Below, in pieces: positions 33,669-52,310 of a DNA stretch of 64,000 nt. Every line of letters begins with the position of its first letter. The first letter of the stretch is position 1. The notes under the pieces are model-generated. The model searched no databases. It was not told where the DNA came from and saw only the letters and a list, made by a program, of their open reading frames with translations. The DNA is from Caulobacter sp. Root1455 (lineage in GTDB: Bacteria; Pseudomonadota; Alphaproteobacteria; Caulobacterales; Caulobacteraceae): NCBI RefSeq assembly GCF_001426905.1, contig NZ_LMFQ01000012.1, positions 1,187 through 65,186 of the forward strand. Reading direction: 5' to 3'. The translations under genes and the position numbers were made by a program.

Positions 33669-33936
33669 GGGAACTGTCCGGTTGGGATGGGGGCGACGGG
33701 GCTGTTGACGACGTTGTCATTTCAATCCGCGCTTGTCATCCGCTCCTAGCTGTCATCCCGGACGAGCGCGCAGCGCGAAGATCCGGGACCGACGCCTGAG
33801 CGCCGCGCTTCCGGCGGTCCCGGATCTTCACCCGGCTTCGCCGGGCTCGTCCGGGATGACAGGCAGGAGGGAGCGTTGACTTGAACCACGCCGCCGACGA
33901 AGGTCCGGCCTCGCCGAGCCAGAAACGGAGCCCGCC
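33669..33936. repeat. Gap holding a long GTCATCCCGG-family repeat (33750-33862)
   Basis: CTGTCATCCCGG (33750-33761) pairs with CCGGGATGACAG (33851-33862). Inside are the stems GATCCGGGACCG/CGGTCCCGGATC and CCCGGCTTCGCCGGG. The rest of the gap is the region between divergent genes and shows no ORF. Confidence 0.7.
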
Positions 33937-35033: not shown

Positions 35034-35110
35034 GGCTGGGTAGCTCAGATGGTTAGAGCGGTGGATTCATAACCCACAGGTCGGCGGTTCGATCCCGCCC
35101 CCAGCCACCA
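35034..35110 (+). tRNA. tRNA-Met (CAT), elongator type
   Basis: Cloverleaf: acceptor GGCTGGG (35034-35040) pairs with CCCAGCC (35100-35106); discriminator A and encoded CCA follow (35107-35110). The anticodon loop is TTCATAA (35066-35072) with anticodon CAT; the T arm is GGCGG-TTCGATC-CCGCC (35083-35099). The anticodon stem has one A-C mismatch next to the loop. A lysidine-modified tRNA-Ile2 also has CAT, but the overall sequence fits elongator Met better. It lacks the initiator acceptor-end mismatch. Confidence 0.93.
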
Positions 35111-35186: not shown

Positions 35187-35214
35187 TGTCGGATCGCGCC
35201 GTGCCTGATCGTCC
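35187..35214 (+). promoter_or_regulatory. Candidate ECF42 promoter, copy 1 (TGTCGG-N17-CGTCC)
   Basis: TGTCGG (35187-35192), 17 bases, then CGTCC (35210-35214), 26 bases before the YCII start codon. The same motif with the same spacing lies at 36940-36967. ECF42 factors are reported to use a TGTCGA-type -35 box, so this is probably the autoregulated promoter of the cluster. Confidence 0.6.
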
Positions 35215-35239
35215 TGGCTACGACAAGGTGCGCGGTCCG

Positions 35240-35650
35240 ATGCTCTATGCCATTCTCTGCTACAATTCCGAGGACGCGGTCGGCGCCTGGACGCCGGCGG
35301 AGGACGCCGTGGTCATGGCCCGGCTCGCGATGGTCGAGGCCGTGCTGGCCGGCGCCGATCGACTGGGCGCGGTGGCCCGCCTGCTGCCGACGACGGCCGC
35401 CGTCACCCTACGCAAGGGGCGCCCGGAGGGGGGCCGCGAGTCGGTGGTGATCGACGGGCCGTTCGCCGAGACCAAGGAGCAGCTCCTGGGGTTCTATGTC
35501 GTCGATTGCGGGAACCTGGACGGGGCGATCGACGTGGCGCGCGACCTGGCCGCGGCCAATCCCGACCGGGGCGCCTATGAAATCCGTCCGCTGGCCGTCT
35601 ATCGTCCCGGCGGCTTGACCCAAGGACGCGCGAGGAAGGTTCGGGCATGA
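35240..35650 (+). CDS. YCII/DGPF-domain protein, ECF42 partner
   Basis: The 136-aa protein starts at ATG 35240 (MLYAILCYNSEDAVGAWTP); the longer GTG reading from 35186 would run through the predicted promoter. It has the family signature DGPFAETKEQLLGFYVVDCGNLDGAIDVARDL and ends near the overlap with the sigma gene (ATGA at 35647-35650). DGPF proteins accompany ECF42 sigma factors in many bacteria and are thought to be targets or modulators; their biochemical role is not established. Confidence 0.9.
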   Translation: MLYAILCYNSEDAVGAWTPAEDAVVMARLAMVEAVLAGADRLGAVARLLPTTAAVTLRKGRPEGGRESVVIDGPFAETKEQLLGFYVVDCGNLDGAIDVARDLAAANPDRGAYEIRPLAVYRPGGLTQGRARKVRA

Positions 35651-36912
35651 CCATCGCCAATATCGACGCGGCCTGGATCGACGCCGCCCTGACCGCGGCC
35701 CGGCCCCAGGCGGTGGCGGCGCTGCTGCGCTATTTCCGCGACCTGGACACCGCCGAGGAGGCCTTCCAGGACGCCTGCCTGCGAGCCTTGAAGGCCTGGC
35801 CCAAGAATGGTCCGCCGCGCGACCCGACCGCCTGGCTGATCCTGGTCGGCCGCAACGCCGCCCTGGACGGTGTGCGCAAGCAGAGCAAGTCGTCGCCGCT
35901 GCCGCCGGAAGAGCTGATCTCCGACCTGGAGGACGCCGAGGCCGCCCTGGTCGACCGGCTGGACGGCGAGCACTATCGCGACGACGTGCTGCGGCTGCTG
36001 TTCATCTGCTGCCATCCGGACCTGCCGGCGACCCAGCAGGTCGCCGTGGCCCTGCGCATCGTCTCGGGCCTGTCGGTCAGACAGATCGCTCGCGCCTTCC
36101 TGGTCGGCGAGTCGGCGATGGAGCAGCGGATCACCCGCGCCAAGGCCCGGATCGGAGCGGCCGACGTGCCGTTCGGCGCGCCCGACCCCGAGGAACGGGA
36201 TAAGCGCCTGACCGCCGTGGCGGCCATGGTCTATCTGATCTTCAACGAGGGCTATTCGGCCGGCGGCAAGGAACTGCTGACCCGCGGCTCGCTGTGCGAC
36301 GAGGCCATCCGGCTGGCGCGCCTGCTGCTGCGCCTATTCCCCAGCGAGCCGGAGATCATGGGCCTGACCGCCCTGCTGCTGCTGCAGCACGCCCGCGCGC
36401 CGGCGCGGTTCGACGCCGACGGGGCGGTGGTGCTGCTGGAGGACCAGGACCGCTCGCTGTGGAACCCGCGGATGATCGCCGAGGGGCTGGCCCTGATCGA
36501 CAAGGCGGTGCGCCATCGCCGGCCCGGACCCTATCTGGTGCAGGCCGCCATCGCCGCCGAGCACGACCGCGCCGAACGGGCGGATCTGACCAACTGGACT
36601 CGGATCGACTTGCTGTACGGCGACCTGGAGCAACTGGCGCCGTCGCCGGTGGTCACGCTGAACCGGGCCGTGGCGGTGTCGAAGGTGGCCGGGCCCGAGG
36701 CGGCGCTGACGATGATCGAGCCGCTGGCGCCCAAGCTGTCGGGCTATTTCCACTTCTTCGGCGTGAAGGGCGGACTGCTGCTGCAACTGGATCGGCGGGA
36801 CGAGGCGCGCGTCGCCTTCGACCAGGCCATCGCCCTGGCCAACACCGCCGCCGAGGCCGCCCACATCCGCCTGCACCTGGACAGGCTGATGAAGGAAGGG
36901 ACGGGCGGCTAG
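35647..36912 (+). CDS. ECF42-type RNA polymerase sigma factor with C-terminal TPR-like extension
   Basis: The 421-aa protein is far longer than a minimal ECF factor. Region 2 spans about 14-80 (AVAALLRYFRDLDTAEEAFQDACLRALKAWPKNGPPRDPTAWLILVGRNAALDGVRK), region 4 about 115-170 (LRLLFICCHPDLPATQQVAVALRIVSGLSVRQIARAFLVGESAMEQRITRAK), then FNEGYSAGGKELLTRGSLCDEAIRLARLLLRLFP and TPR-like helices to the end, the ECF42 hallmark. No anti-sigma gene is adjacent; the extension is thought to control activity. It overlaps the YCII gene by four bases. Genes to 38495 are the likely regulon. Confidence 0.93.
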   Translation: MTIANIDAAWIDAALTAARPQAVAALLRYFRDLDTAEEAFQDACLRALKAWPKNGPPRDPTAWLILVGRNAALDGVRKQSKSSPLPPEELISDLEDAEAALVDRLDGEHYRDDVLRLLFICCHPDLPATQQVAVALRIVSGLSVRQIARAFLVGESAMEQRITRAKARIGAADVPFGAPDPEERDKRLTAVAAMVYLIFNEGYSAGGKELLTRGSLCDEAIRLARLLLRLFPSEPEIMGLTALLLLQHARAPARFDADGAVVLLEDQDRSLWNPRMIAEGLALIDKAVRHRRPGPYLVQAAIAAEHDRAERADLTNWTRIDLLYGDLEQLAPSPVVTLNRAVAVSKVAGPEAALTMIEPLAPKLSGYFHFFGVKGGLLLQLDRRDEARVAFDQAIALANTAAEAAHIRLHLDRLMKEGTGG

Positions 36913-36939
36913 GGGATCTCGAAAAAAGTTTCCGGCGCG

Positions 36940-36967
36940 TGTCGGGTCGGCGGGGCGGCGTCCGTCC
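36940..36967 (+). promoter_or_regulatory. Candidate ECF42 promoter, copy 2 (TGTCGG-N17-CGTCC)
   Basis: TGTCGG (36940-36945), 17 bases, then CGTCC (36963-36967), 27 bases before the SnoaL-like gene. It shares GTGTCGG-N-TCG and the downstream box with the copy at 35187, although the spacers are otherwise different. Confidence 0.6.
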
Positions 36968-36994
36968 TTTGGTCGAACCCAACGGGAGACCGCC

Positions 36995-37429
36995 ATGCCT
37001 GACGCCGCCGCCGACGAGGTCGCGATCCGTCGCGTGATCGACGCCTGGACCAAGGCGCTGCACGACAAGGACGCCCAGGGCGCGACCGCCGACCTGACCG
37101 CCGACTTCGCGCTCTATTCGCTGGCCCCGCCGCTGGGCTCCACGGGGCCCGATCCCGCCGGCTTGCAGGCCTGGTTCGACACCTGGTCCAGCCCCATCGG
37201 CTATGACTTGCCCGATCTCGAGATCGCCGCCGCCGGCGACGTGGCCTTCGCCCACGGCCTGGCCCACATGACCGGGACCAAGACCGACGGCGAGATCGCC
37301 GACCTGTGGTTCCGCTGCACCCTGGGCCTGCGCAAGCGCGGCGGCGCCTGGAAGATCGTCCACGCCCACGAGTCCGTGCCGTTCCTGATGGACGGCAGCT
37401 TCAAGGCCGCCCTCGACCTGAAGCCCTGA
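36995..37429 (+). CDS. SnoaL/NTF2-like protein
   Basis: The 144-aa protein (AIRRVIDAWTKALHDKDAQGATADLTADFALYSLAPPLG…WFDTWSSPIGYDLPDLEIAAAGDVAFAHGLAHMTGTKTDGEIADLWFRCTLGLRKRGGAWKIVHAHESVPF) has the cone-shaped NTF2 fold of SnoaL-type and ketosteroid-isomerase-like proteins. The active-site type is unclear. ATG 36995 follows CGGGAG. It starts the second half of the ECF42 cluster, right behind the candidate promoter. Confidence 0.88.
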   Translation: MPDAAADEVAIRRVIDAWTKALHDKDAQGATADLTADFALYSLAPPLGSTGPDPAGLQAWFDTWSSPIGYDLPDLEIAAAGDVAFAHGLAHMTGTKTDGEIADLWFRCTLGLRKRGGAWKIVHAHESVPFLMDGSFKAALDLKP

Positions 37430-37457: not shown

Positions 37458-37880
37458 ATGACCGACGCCCAACCGAAAATGCCCGAGTTGCCGCCCGTTT
37501 CCGGGGGCATCGTGCCCTACCTGTCGCCGAGCAACGCCGGCCAGGCGGCCGACTTCTACGCCAAGGCCTTCGGGGCCCAGGACCTCTACCGCATGCCGCC
37601 GGACGAGAAGGGCCGGACCATGCACATCCACCTGCTGATCAACGGCAATTCGCTGATGCTCAGCGACTTCTATCCCGAGCATGGCTACCCCGAGGAAAAG
37701 CCCGCCGCCTTCACCCTGCACCTGCAGGTCGACGACGTGGACAAGTGGTTCGAGCGCGCGGTGGCGGCCGGGTGCGAGGTGACCTTGCCGGTGCAGCTGA
37801 TGTTCTGGGGCGACCGCTACGGCCAGTTGAAGGATCCCTACGGCTTCTCGTGGTCGATCGCCACGACGCCCAAGGCCTGA
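37458..37880 (+). CDS. VOC-family protein (PhnB/glyoxalase-like)
   Basis: The 140-aa protein has a single pair of VOC modules: IVPYLSPSNAGQAADFYAKAFGAQDLYRMPPDEKGRTMHIHLLINGNSLMLSDFYPE and FTLHLQVDDVDKWFERAVAAGCEVTLPVQLMFWGDRYGQLKDPYGFSWSIA. The WGDRYGQLKDPYGFSW end is that of the PhnB/YdcE-type branch. Such proteins are often stress-linked and of unknown substrate. It lies 28 bases after the SnoaL gene, with a GGAG site. Confidence 0.9.
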   Translation: MTDAQPKMPELPPVSGGIVPYLSPSNAGQAADFYAKAFGAQDLYRMPPDEKGRTMHIHLLINGNSLMLSDFYPEHGYPEEKPAAFTLHLQVDDVDKWFERAVAAGCEVTLPVQLMFWGDRYGQLKDPYGFSWSIATTPKA

Positions 37881-37967: not shown

Positions 37968-38495
37968 GTGCTCAAGATCATCGCCATCGTCGTCGCCGTC
38001 GCGATCGTCGCCCTGCTGGGCTACGCGGCGACCAAGCCCAACCACTTCCGCGTCGCCCGCTCGACCGTGATCAAGGCGCCGCCGGAAAAGATCTACGCCC
38101 TGATCGACGACTTCCATAAGTGGGGAGCCTGGTCGCCCTACGAGAAGCTGGATCCGGCCATGACCCGCACCTACGGCGGCCCGGCCAGCGGGCTGGGCTC
38201 GACCTATGCCTGGAGCGGCAACGGCAAGGCCGGGGCCGGCCGCATGGAGATCATCGAGGCCGCCGCGCCGTCGAAGCTGGTCACCAGCCTGGACTTCACC
38301 AAGCCTTTCGAGGTCCACAACAAGGCGATCTTCACCCTGGTCCCCGAGGGCGAGGCCACCCGCGTCACCTGGGCCATGGAGGGACCGTCGCCCTTCCTGT
38401 TCAAGGTGATGGACGTGATCTTCAACATGGACCGGATGGCCGGCAAGGACTTCGAGACCGGTCTGGCCAGCCTGAAGGCGGAAGCCGAAAAGTAG
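37968..38495 (+). CDS. Membrane-anchored SRPBCC protein
   Basis: GTG 37968 follows AGGAGGGGACAGCC. The 175-aa protein has an N-terminal membrane anchor (MLKIIAIVVAVAIVALLGYAATKP) and a polyketide-cyclase-like SRPBCC domain (FRVARSTVIKAPPEKIYALIDDFHKWGAWSPYEKLDPAMTRTYGGPASGLGSTYAWSG…RMEIIEAAAPSKLVTSLDFTKPF). The domain would face the periplasm if the anchor is uncleaved with N-in topology. It is the last gene of the ECF42 cluster. Confidence 0.88.
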   Translation: MLKIIAIVVAVAIVALLGYAATKPNHFRVARSTVIKAPPEKIYALIDDFHKWGAWSPYEKLDPAMTRTYGGPASGLGSTYAWSGNGKAGAGRMEIIEAAAPSKLVTSLDFTKPFEVHNKAIFTLVPEGEATRVTWAMEGPSPFLFKVMDVIFNMDRMAGKDFETGLASLKAEAEK

Positions 38496-49980: not shown

Positions 49981-50706
49981 GTGAAGCTGGTCCTGCGCGA
50001 AACCTCTCCCGAAGCCCGGTCGCTGGCGAGCGCGGCCGGCTTCCTGCTGGACCTGCTGCTGGCGGGGCTCCTGGTGTTCGCCCTGGTCGATCGCCTGGCG
50101 CCGCCGCAGGACCTGCCTTGGAAGCCGTTCTCGCTGAACCAGCCGATCGGCCTGGCCACGGCCGGCAAGCTGGCGCGGATCGGCGCGGATCCGGCCGCCT
50201 GCCGCGCCGCCCTGCGCGAAGGCGGGGTGCGGTTCGCGGAAGGCGAGACGCGGGAGACCGGCTACTGCTCGACGCGCGACACGGTGCGGGCCGCCGGCCG
50301 CCTGGCGCCCGCCGCGCCGGTCATGACCTGCCCGCTGGCGCTGGGTTACGCGCTGTGGGAGCACCAGGTCCTGGTCCCGGCGTCGCGCGAGATCATGGGC
50401 AGCCGGCTGGTCCGGGTGGAGCACTACGGAACCTACGCCTGCCGCACGATCTACGGCCGGCCCGGCGAGCGGCCCAGCGCCCATGCCCACGCCGCCGCCC
50501 TGGACGTGGCCGGCTTCCGCTTCGCCGACGGACGCCGGGCCACGGTGGCGGCCGACTTCCGGTCAGGCAGCGACGAGGGCCATTTCGTTCAGGCGGCGCG
50601 CAACGGCGCCTGCCGGGTGTTCGGGACCGTCCTGAGCCCGGACTACAACGCCGCCCACCGCGATCACCTGCATCTGGAGGGCGGCGGCTACAGGCTGTGC
50701 CGTTGA
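49981..50706 (+). CDS. Extensin-family (LAS-type peptidase-like) membrane protein, paralogue 1
   Basis: GTG 49981. The 241-aa protein has one N-terminal membrane segment (FLLDLLLAGLLVFALVDRLAP) and an extensin-like C domain: DPAACRAALREGGVRFAEGE, VEHYGTYACRTIYGRPGERPSAHAHAAALDVAGFRFADGRRATVA, CRVFGTVLSPDYNAAHRDHLHLEGG. The S-x-H-(x6)-D and HRDHLH clusters are the zinc ligands of LAS/MEPS-type peptidoglycan peptidases, so a cell-wall role in the periplasm is plausible. A diverged copy follows 87 bases later. Confidence 0.85.
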   Translation: MKLVLRETSPEARSLASAAGFLLDLLLAGLLVFALVDRLAPPQDLPWKPFSLNQPIGLATAGKLARIGADPAACRAALREGGVRFAEGETRETGYCSTRDTVRAAGRLAPAAPVMTCPLALGYALWEHQVLVPASREIMGSRLVRVEHYGTYACRTIYGRPGERPSAHAHAAALDVAGFRFADGRRATVAADFRSGSDEGHFVQAARNGACRVFGTVLSPDYNAAHRDHLHLEGGGYRLCR

Positions 50707-50793: not shown

Positions 50794-51546
50794 ATGGCCT
50801 ATCGCGTCCCGCGACATCAGAGCGTCGAGCATCGCACGCGCCGCCAAAACCGCCTGGCGGGGCTGACGGCGCTGTTCCTGCTGTGGGCGCTGGTGCTGGT
50901 CATGGCGTTGGTGGCCGAGCGCGGCATAGCCCGCCAGCACCTGCCCTGGAAGCCGCTCAGCATCGTCGATCCGGTCGGCATGGCCACGCGGATCAAGGCG
51001 GCGCGGGCCGGCGATGATCCGGCCACCTGTCGGGCGATCCTGCGCAAGGCGGGGCTGTCTTACGAAGAGGTTCCGGAGAAGACCGACGGCGGGTTCTGCA
51101 CGGTGCGCGACGCCCTGAAGATCGACGGCGGCATGGCCGGCCTGTCGCCGATCGACGCGCCGATGGTCTGCAAGGAGGCTCTGGCCCTGTCGATCTGGGA
51201 GCGCCAGGTGGTGCAGCCGGCCGCCTACGAGGTGCTGGGCCAGGGGGTGGTCGGGCTGGAGCACTACGGCACCTATTCCTGCCGGCGGATGTACGGCAAG
51301 ACGGCCGGACCGGTCAGCGAGCACGCCAGCGCCGACGCCATCGACCTGGCCGGCTTCAAGCTGGCCGACGGCCAGACGGTCTATGTCGCCCGCGACTGGA
51401 GCGATCCGGGCCCCAAGGGCCAGTTCCTGCGCCGGGTGCGCGACGGGGCCTGCCGGGTGTTCATCACCACGCTCAGCCCCGACTTCAACGCCGAGCACCA
51501 CGACCACTTCCACCTGGACATGCACGGGTGGAGCAAGTGCGCGTGA
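50794..51546 (+). CDS. Extensin-family (LAS-type peptidase-like) membrane protein, paralogue 2
   Basis: The 250-aa protein shares its plan and many residues with the gene upstream: membrane anchor (LTALFLLWALVLVMALVAER), LPWKPLSI, DPATCRAILRKAGLSYEEVPE, LEHYGTYSCRRMYGKTAGPVSEHASADAIDLAGFKLADGQTVYVARDW, CRVFITTLSPDFNAEHHDHFHLDMHG. Four cysteines sit in equivalent places. The tandem pair comes from an old duplication. Zinc ligands are all present. ATG 50794 is used. Confidence 0.85.
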   Translation: MAYRVPRHQSVEHRTRRQNRLAGLTALFLLWALVLVMALVAERGIARQHLPWKPLSIVDPVGMATRIKAARAGDDPATCRAILRKAGLSYEEVPEKTDGGFCTVRDALKIDGGMAGLSPIDAPMVCKEALALSIWERQVVQPAAYEVLGQGVVGLEHYGTYSCRRMYGKTAGPVSEHASADAIDLAGFKLADGQTVYVARDWSDPGPKGQFLRRVRDGACRVFITTLSPDFNAEHHDHFHLDMHGWSKCA

Positions 51547-51622: not shown

Positions 51623-52105
51623 TCAGAACGTCTTGGCCACTTCGGCCAATTGATCGGCGACGATGCCCCAGCCTTCGTGGAAGCCCATCCGCTCGTGGGC
51701 CTCGCGGTCCTCGACCGTCCAGTGGCGGGCGGTGGCGGTGTAGCGGGTCGTGCCGTCGCCCAGGTCCTCGAACTCGACGATCGCGACCATGAACGGCTTG
51801 CCCGACGGGACCCAGGCCGAGCTGAAGGCGTCGGTGAAGACCAGGCGCTTGTTCGGAACGACCTCGAGATAGACGCCGGGATTGGGCACCTCCTCGCCGT
51901 TGGGGCCTTGCATGACGACCAGGCTGGAGCCGCCGGGGCGGATGTCCATCTCGGCGTGCGAGACGGTCCAGGGCTTGGGGCAGAACCACTCGTGCATCCG
52001 CTCGGGCGTCGTCCAGCACTTGAACAGCTTGTCGGCGGGCACGTCGATGATGCGGGTCAGCACCAGTTCGCGGTCGGCGATGGGGGAGGGGGCGGGGGCG
52101 GTCAC
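51623..52105 (-). CDS. SRPBCC (AHSA1-type) domain protein
   Basis: GTG 52105 follows TAGGAG and gives MTAPAPSPIADRELVLTRIIDVPADKLFKCWTTPERMHEWFCPKPWTVSHAEMDIRPGG…GEEVPNPGVYLEVVPNKRLVFTDAFSSAW…VEFEDLGDGTTRYTATARHWTVEDREAHERMGFHEGWGIVADQLAEV. This is a complete AHSA1-family domain of 160 aa, a common hydrophobic-pocket protein. Unlike the copy at 23932 it stands alone with no ArsR partner. Confidence 0.9.
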   Translation of the reverse strand: MTAPAPSPIADRELVLTRIIDVPADKLFKCWTTPERMHEWFCPKPWTVSHAEMDIRPGGSSLVVMQGPNGEEVPNPGVYLEVVPNKRLVFTDAFSSAWVPSGKPFMVAIVEFEDLGDGTTRYTATARHWTVEDREAHERMGFHEGWGIVADQLAEVAKTF

Positions 52106-52310
52106 GGCGTTTCTCCTAAGGGGGGCGTTGTTGTGCCCGAAGGACGACCACGCGGGCGGCGATCCGACATCGCCGGCGAACTTTTGTCGATGCCTGTCCG
52201 TCAATGCCCGGCGCCGATAGCGGCAAGCCGAGGGCCGCCTAGGGTGTTCACCTGATTTACCCCTCGCCTGGACAGTTCAGGCTCCGGCTGGGTCGCCAGG
52301 GAGCTGTCTG

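Follow-up and report, generated by a model that had tools for sequence, protein, structure and literature searches.

An ECF42-type sigma factor of Caulobacter sp. Root1455 and its predicted TGTCGG-N17-CGTCC promoters

A 64,000-nucleotide stretch of the genome of Caulobacter sp. Root1455 (contig NZ_LMFQ01000012.1, positions 1,187 to 65,186; hereafter the window, whose numbering is used unless stated otherwise) encodes a sigma factor of group ECF42 (extracytoplasmic function group 42) next to a gene for a small YCII/DGPF-type protein. Three exact copies of a bipartite motif, TGTCGG-N17-CGTCC, are found in the window and, judging from comparative analysis, are very probably promoters of this sigma factor. 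Among related genomes, the comparison shows a putative promoter family of fixed spacing that tracks the sigma gene together with genes for proteins with small ligand-binding folds. For a sigma group that occurs widely but is little understood, the analysis proposes an exact promoter and predicts, for a relative of Caulobacter, a regulon comprising five transcription units. The TGTCGG promoter type is already known from a published counterpart in Sinorhizobium meliloti (PMC6180224); added here are the extent of the regulon, a TGTCGG/TGTCGA split within ECF42, which may have been described earlier in the literature, and a candidate specificity residue, Glu159. The features in question are as follows.

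35187..35214, + strand: predicted promoter P1, with -35 TGTCGG, N17 and -10 CGTCC(T); predicted transcription start near 35222
36940..36967, + strand: predicted promoter P2, with -35 TGTCGG, N17 and -10 CGTCC(T); predicted transcription start near 36975
52142..52169, - strand: predicted promoter P3, same motif, exact, in trans, 15 kb away; predicted transcription start near 52134
35240..35650, + strand: YCII/DGPF-type protein, 136 amino acids (Pfam YCII, 3.3e-17)
35647..36912, + strand: ECF42-type sigma factor with Sigma70_r2, Sigma70_r4_2, DUF6596 and a helical C-terminal extension; recognition helix 155-172 with Glu159 and Thr163
36995..37429, + strand: SnoaL_3 protein, 144 amino acids (Pfam, 3e-19)
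37458..37880, + strand: VOC/glyoxalase-fold protein, 140 amino acids (Pfam Glyoxalase, 1.5e-17)
37968..38495, + strand: SRPBCC (Polyketide_cyc2) protein, 175 amino acids (Pfam, 9.4e-15)
51623..52105, - strand: AHSA1/SRPBCC protein, 160 amino acids, predicted target of P3 (Pfam AHSA1, 1.9e-32); GTG start at 52105 chosen by us

Motif copies in the window

Two of the copies, TGTCGGATCGCGCCGTGCCTGATCGTCC at 35187-35214 (P1) and TGTCGGGTCGGCGGGGCGGCGTCCGTCC at 36940-36967 (P2), both on the forward strand, had been pointed out in the first-pass annotation and are present exactly where it placed them, each with a 17-base spacer. P1 ends 25 bases before the ATG of the YCII gene at 35240, and P2 ends 27 bases before the ATG of the SnoaL gene at 36995. 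The third exact copy, P3, located upstream of the AHSA1/SRPBCC gene, had escaped that annotation. When spacers of 15-19 bases are allowed, the window has four matches to TGTCGG-N15-19-CGTCC, compared with an expectation of 0.64, and none of 100 shuffles reached this count. A scan of spacers of 8-29 bases gave three matches for 17 and one apiece for 13, 16 and 22; in the same scan, 600 letter-permuted decoy motifs yielded 0.10 matches on average, with three or more in only 2 cases. The 'N-TCG' following the first hexamer, originally counted as part of the motif, turned out to be variable among the P1 sites of relatives and was dropped; the conserved core is TGTCGG-N17-CGTC(C)T, and a GG two bases further is conserved less strongly.

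Conservation of P1 and P2 in relatives

A search of 149 genomes of the family for the sigma factor recovered 47 orthologs, including the one in the window. The neighborhoods of 40 of these (64-95% identity) were fetched and, together with the window, constitute the 41 loci compared here; four further orthologs (L020, L027, L034 and L042) were checked separately and agree, and two on cut contigs (G110 and G081) were left out. TGTCGG-N17-CGTC is found upstream of the YCII-sigma operon in 35 of the 41 loci, the window included, compared with a chance level of 0.025 on average and 1 at most under first-order resampling. The motif begins 45-64 bases upstream of the YCII start in these 35 loci and, when spacers of 10-24 bases were tried, 17 was obtained in 34 loci and 13 in one (one locus was left out). 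Although TGTCGG and CGTC are invariant among the 35 sites by selection, the T that follows CGTCC is invariant without having been selected for, and most of the spacer is unconserved. Five of the six loci that lack the strict motif show a single mismatch (TGTCTG in two, CGTCGG in one and TGTAGG in two), and one, L081, has no such site.

The downstream site behaves similarly. Among the 24 loci in which a SnoaL, VOC or anchored-SRPBCC homolog follows the sigma gene, 20 carry the strict motif within 150 bases of the first such gene, and 2 more have the TGTAGG variant at this place; in L081 and L082, the downstream motif is absent despite the presence of such a gene. Conversely, none of the 17 loci without a SnoaL, VOC or SRPBCC gene has the motif downstream of the sigma gene on the same strand. 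In one locus (L058), the site lies 2235 bases past the sigma start, ahead of a displaced VOC gene. The downstream site goes with the gene after the sigma factor, be it SnoaL, VOC or SRPBCC; SnoaL itself is the first gene after the sigma gene in only 3 of the 41 loci (the window, L049 and L050).

GC-rich sequence could often yield such hexamer pairs by chance, and the four loose matches in the window, as well as roughly one exact motif per Mb in genomes lacking a sigma ortholog, would fit this explanation. However, the fixed spacing, the nearly fixed distance to the gene and the largely unconserved spacers over the 41 loci speak against it, and the pattern repeats in a second set of loci from named genomes (see below), which overlaps the first in a few records. 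Given the 41-locus conservation, the resampling of the named genomes and the decoy motifs, we rejected a chance origin, which appears next to impossible.

Predicted targets in trans

The 5.08 Mb genome of Caulobacter sp. Root1455, in which the window belongs to contig C12, contains 12 exact motifs compared with 2 for the reversed control. Five of them precede start codons, namely those of the YCII, SnoaL and AHSA1 genes, of a PhnB-like VOC gene (3-dmu-9_3-mt domain; contig C20) and of a DUF4287 gene (contig C22); one is located before a YceI gene and six have no gene assignment. For the AHSA1 and PhnB-like VOC genes, the best 30 homolog loci each, our own included, were footprinted, and the strict motif was detected upstream in 22 and 25 of them, respectively. 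For AHSA1, the site is present in 20 of the 22 loci from genomes with the sigma ortholog and in 2 of the 8 from genomes without it (Fisher p 0.001). Genome-wide, the 38 genomes with an ortholog contain 394 motifs versus 81 for the reversed control, and the excess is greater than in the 40 genomes without one (rank test, p 1e-9, 78 genomes); G085 and G129 were excluded from this count because their promoter reads TGTAGG. The co-occurrence of sigma factor and motif is significant for the genome-wide counts and for AHSA1. The predicted regulon extends beyond DGPF proteins, as the first-pass annotation had held, and is wider than the SnoaL, VOC and SRPBCC genes named there, with AHSA1, the PhnB-like VOC and DUF4287 added.

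The site upstream of the YceI gene (C12:242929-242956), an exact copy of the motif, lies 82 bases from its ATG; the gene, which encodes a YceI-domain, lipoprotein-like protein, may be a further target and was left out of the regulon count.

Several results weigh against the assignment of the motif to this sigma factor or against parts of the regulon. The DUF4287 site is found in only 4 of 11 homologs, our own included. For the PhnB-like VOC gene, the site is present in 22 of 25 loci with the sigma ortholog and in 3 of 5 without it, which is not a significant difference (Fisher p 0.18). The 40 genomes without an ortholog still contain 170 motifs versus 111 for the reversed control, so some excess remains, and the control itself is somewhat lower in ortholog genomes (0.48 vs 0.75 per Mb, p 0.024). 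Sites are kept in G012, G015 and G018, for which no DUF6596 sigma was detected, and in G004 and G038, whose only DUF6596 sigmas are distant ones. Furthermore, in the two Asticcacaulis-type orthologs (G085 and G129), TGTAGG replaces TGTCGG. Finally, SMc01151, the S. meliloti YCII gene predicted to be cotranscribed with the ECF42 gene rpoE10, carries TGTCGG-N17-CGTC but is described as unresponsive to RpoE10 overexpression, and the start mapped for this gene overlaps the motif, which also argues against self-control (PMC6180224).

In G012 (L118, 3783-3911), the TGTCGG promoter is intact, the YCII gene is cut after about 35 codons and the divergent AHSA1 gene keeps its site; this locus is likely a relic of a recent loss of the sigma operon. 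In G004 (L119, 3198-3264) and G038 (L120, 3807-3863), back-to-back TGTCGG promoters precede AHSA1 and VOC genes that diverge from each other, and the stretch fetched contains no sigma homolog.

In the Asticcacaulis-type genomes, the operon has TGTAGG at both of its promoters, a joint change that would be expected if one sigma factor reads both. Genome-wide, TGTAGG-N17-CGTC shows no excess over the reversed control in these two genomes (9 vs 7 and 4 vs 8), and the TGTAGG sites appear notable only by their place, that is, before the YCII gene, the VOC gene and another YCII gene. The latter, a second and different YCII-like gene about 7-8 kb from a DUF6596 paralog (L343 and L347 in G129 and G085, respectively), is preceded by TGTAGG-N17-CGTC, possibly a third site of the altered promoter.

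Comparison with RpoE10 of Sinorhizobium meliloti and the question of autoregulation

Overexpression of RpoE10 raises expression of SMc01149-SMc01148 and SMb20475-SMb20474, and the targets are described as a predicted hydrophobic-ligand-binding protein, glyoxalase-like proteins and one protein without predicted function (PMC6180224). The respective promoters are TGTCGG-N17-CGTCC for SMc01149 and TGTCGG-N17-CGTCA for SMb20475 (PMC6180224; spacers counted in this analysis). The mapped transcription start of SMc01149 lies eight bases after CGTCC (PMC6180224), and the starts predicted here at 35222, 36975 and 52134 were placed on this basis. As in S. meliloti, the YCII gene adjoins the sigma gene and targets lie both near the sigma gene and elsewhere, in S. 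meliloti on another replicon, according to the same report. Unlike in S. meliloti, the downstream operon is headed by SnoaL, and AHSA1 and DUF4287 are predicted targets in trans; the genome studied here also encodes five ECF42-type sigmas versus one ECF42 in S. meliloti. We tentatively place RpoE10 in the TGTCGG clade discussed below because of its promoters and not by comparison of its sequence. Footprinting in relatives, the sites in trans and promoters of this form mapped in S. meliloti all strongly favor the ECF42 promoter reading with which the study began. The claim that the gene set is richer than usual is only partly new because hydrophobic-ligand-binding and glyoxalase-like RpoE10 targets had already been published (PMC6180224).

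A bipartite element with fixed spacing would also suit the two half-sites of an operator bound by a DNA-binding regulator. The halves, however, are neither inverted nor direct repeats, they take the form of the -35 and -10 boxes of ECF promoters, and in S. meliloti transcription of SMc01149 starts just past the motif (PMC6180224); we consider an operator highly improbable.

A different alternative is that P2, P3 and the sites in trans depend on the sigma factor while P1 has no autoregulatory activity, transcription of the YCII-sigma operon starting from another promoter. The behavior of SMc01151 agrees with this possibility, and in two loci (L065 and L071) P1 is worn to TGTCTG while the AHSA1 site in trans of the same genomes is intact (L100 and L098). 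It is nonetheless unlikely, given that most of the loci keep P1 and that its distance from the ATG hardly varies. The self-control proposed initially is plausible for Caulobacter but finds no parallel in the unresponsive YCII operon of S. meliloti, and we regard P1 as probably autoregulatory. The mechanical open reading frame (ORF) call opens the YCII frame at GTG 35186, within P1; ATG 35240 is the preferred start.

If P1 and its counterparts are promoters of the sigma factor, RNA polymerase containing it would read TGTCGG as the -35 box through region 4.2 and, beyond a spacer of 17 bases, CGTCC(T) as the -10 box through region 2. The predicted transcription units are the YCII-sigma and SnoaL-VOC-SRPBCC operons and at least three units in trans: AHSA1/SRPBCC (52105 and below), the PhnB-like VOC gene on C20 and the DUF4287 gene on C22. 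The sigma factor may be restrained or activated through its C-terminal extension, perhaps together with the YCII protein. Because SRPBCC, VOC, SnoaL and AHSA1 proteins are the shared targets, the regulated proteins probably bind, convert or detoxify small hydrophobic or reactive compounds.

Paralogous sigmas and the TGTCGG/TGTCGA split

The genome of Caulobacter sp. Root1455 encodes five DUF6596 sigmas, the one in the window and paralogs on C1, C9, C12 (near 228k) and C21. TGTCGA-N17-CG(T/A)C is found upstream of the YCII genes of three paralogs, C9, C12:228k and, twice, C1; the fourth (L123, C21:230500-238000) has no detectable YCII neighbor or upstream TGTCGA-N17 site. The initial description of the -35 box as 'TGTCGA-like' thus applies to the paralogs, the box of the window sigma being TGTCGG.

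To place these boxes on a tree, we used a class-wide set in which 47 of 289 genomes, our own included, have DUF6596 sigmas; the 60 regions fetched cover 61 of the 65 matches outside our own genome (matches in G421, G349 and G311 and one of those in G393 were left out, and L086, with an internal stop, was kept off the tree). In the resulting tree of 105 sigmas, built by a quick method with SH-aLRT support only, a clade of 61 rows (support 99) includes 50 sigmas with TGTCGG, none with TGTCGA and 11 without a resolved site. The 44 sigmas outside the clade comprise 27 with TGTCGA, 2 with TGTCGT, 1 with TGTCGG (L242) and 14 without a resolved site, the last number being high because only N17 sites with TGTCG and CG(T/A)C were counted there; TGTCGA thus accounts for 27 of the 30 resolved sites. 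The -10 end CGTCC is present in 46 of the 50 resolved sites of the clade versus 1 of the 30 outside it. Glu159 is found in all 61 clade members and in none of the other 44 sigmas, and a G as the last -35 base matches clade membership in 79 of the 80 resolved sites.

The exception, L242 (G393), has Gly159/Val163, a TGTCGA-type helix, yet an upstream TGTCGG-N17-CGTCA, and so breaks the rule; this site may be a chance match.

A real ECF42 promoter could also be read by one or more of the paralogs, in a shared regulon. Indeed, the genome has five DUF6596 sigmas, the boxes differ by one -35 base and the -10 end only, and some genomes without the ortholog keep sites. Nevertheless, in three of the four paralog operons the -35 box is TGTCGA and the -10 box ends differently, the motif exceeds its control by more where this ortholog is present, and clade and last -35 base agree almost without exception; a shared regulon is, in our view, quite improbable. 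We infer that the window sigma, rather than its four paralogs, reads the motif, as TGTCGA is the box at each of the three paralogs whose operons have a resolved site.

The second set consists of 80 loci from named genomes, fetched by patterns that favor this helix. Among the 60 loci with Glu159/Thr163, 50 have TGTCGG-N17 upstream, 10 have no resolved site and none has TGTCGA; 48 of the 50 sites fall in the expected stretch, where resampling gave 0 by chance, and three of the 50 (L283, L297 and L301) lie further upstream than the rest. The 17 Ala159/Val163 loci include 4 with TGTCGA and 13 without a resolved site, again because of the restriction to N17 sites with TGTCG and CG(T/A)C, and three other loci, with other or unread helices, have no resolved site. 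One record of the set, titled Frankia sp. RB7 (L266), has an alphaproteobacterial-type sigma (71%) and promoter, and its label may be wrong. The four remaining actinobacterial loci carry Ala159/Val163 (L318, L319 and L325) or Ser159/Val163 (L323), and the only resolved site among them, at L325, is TGTCGA. A paper in the Journal of Bacteriology from 2018 is said to report an ECF42 sigma of Streptomyces venezuelae with a TGTCGA-type -35 box.

Residue 159 lies within the predicted recognition helix 155-172, in the segment MEQRITRAK. Phmmer aligns residues 107-169 of the sigma factor to residues 1-63 of 2h27_A, a sigma-E structure, which we take to be region 4 of sigma-E in complex with -35 DNA; if the alignment is ungapped, residue 159 corresponds to chain position 53, presumably Arg171 of sigma-E. 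In Corynebacterium glutamicum sigma-H, residues 168-172 of the helix that recognizes the -35 box were replaced, yielding a hybrid whose name denotes recognition of the -35 box as by sigma-D and of the -10 box as by sigma-H (PMC11588781); by hand alignment, these residues would correspond to 157-161 here. Control of the -35 base by Thr163 alone was ruled out, as four Ala159/Thr163 sigmas have TGTCGA. The best site of L197, which forms the deepest branch of the clade and combines Glu159 with Val163, reads GGTCGG-N17-CGTCT and so keeps the G in the last -35 place. Other clade-specific residues, among them Gln130, Gln131 and Asp125, also covary with the split, and Glu159 is favored because it is inside the recognition helix. 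On the tree, the G versus A split appears to be essentially one event, and covariation that amounts to one evolutionary event is no proof of cause. We only tentatively propose that Glu159 contributes to the choice of G or A. A promoter code in which Glu159 marks an alphaproteobacterial clade reading TGTCGG, Ala, Gly, Ser or Thr159 goes with TGTCGA, and the box has drifted to TGTAGG in Asticcacaulis is conceivable, though it falls short of being probable. If true, such a code would keep as many as five ECF42 circuits of one genome insulated from one another, and it offers a one-residue hypothesis for how cross-talk among paralogous ECF42 sigmas is avoided.

The sigma factor, its extension and the genes of the locus

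The locus starts with a tRNA-Met gene (35034-35110), followed in order by the YCII gene, the sigma gene, which overlaps it, and the SnoaL_3, VOC and SRPBCC genes. The YCII homolog is directly upstream of the sigma gene in all 41 loci (the window and the 40 orthologs). The SRPBCC protein has a hydrophobic N-terminal segment that, judged by eye from the sequence, resembles a membrane anchor. The nearest named record for the sigma factor is from Caulobacter sp. UNC279MFTsu5.1 (95% identical; the search may exclude our own genome). Its only sigma-70 domains called by Pfam are Sigma70_r2 and Sigma70_r4_2, that is, the ECF core with no region 3; the C-terminus consists of DUF6596 and helices spanning 181-418 (pLDDT of the structure model, 85.7). 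The solved folds nearest to the extension are largely natural or designed tetratricopeptide repeat (TPR) proteins, with Z of 13-14, mostly over residues about 292-420, values near the warning level of the tool for repeats, and Pfam calls no TPR in the extension; the model nevertheless supports a TPR-like fold. Five other genes scanned around the sigma gene carry other Pfam domains, and the scan for an anti-sigma factor was not extended further.

These features agree with ECF42, for which an ECF core, a TPR-rich C-terminal extension of about 200 residues, an adjoining YCII gene and promoters with a TGTCG-type -35 and a CG(T/A)C -10 box are characteristic. As expected of the RpoE10 type, the YCII-sigma operon and SRPBCC/VOC genes are preceded by TGTCGG-N17-CGTC. 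A review describes the C-terminal extension of ECF42 as essential, suggests that the YCII protein joins in regulation and names a sigma of Caulobacter vibrioides to which a YCII domain is fused (PMC8999054). Sven_0747, Sven_4377 and Sven_7131 of S. venezuelae belong to the same group and share the essential C-terminal TPR extension (PMC8999054), and ECF-10 (ECF42) of Pseudomonas putida is reported to have a genomic context similar to that of rpoE10 (PMC6180224). ECF41 sigma factors likewise have a C-terminal extension, thought to stand in for an anti-sigma factor (PMC6180224, PMC8103513). In ECF41, however, the sigma factor itself includes a fused SnoaL-like domain; here, Pfam detects no SnoaL domain in the window sigma, the extension appears TPR-like, and SnoaL is encoded by a separate predicted target gene.

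Two further observations concern other parts of the window. An intergenic stretch at 33752-33860, located 5' of a glycosyltransferase gene, has inverted 16-base arms (GTCATCCCGGACGAGC / GCTCGTCCGGGATGAC) and resembles a dispersed intergenic repeat. The adjacent ORFs at 49981-50706 and 50794-51546 on the + strand have C-terminal halves that look alike by eye and appear to be a tandem gene pair.

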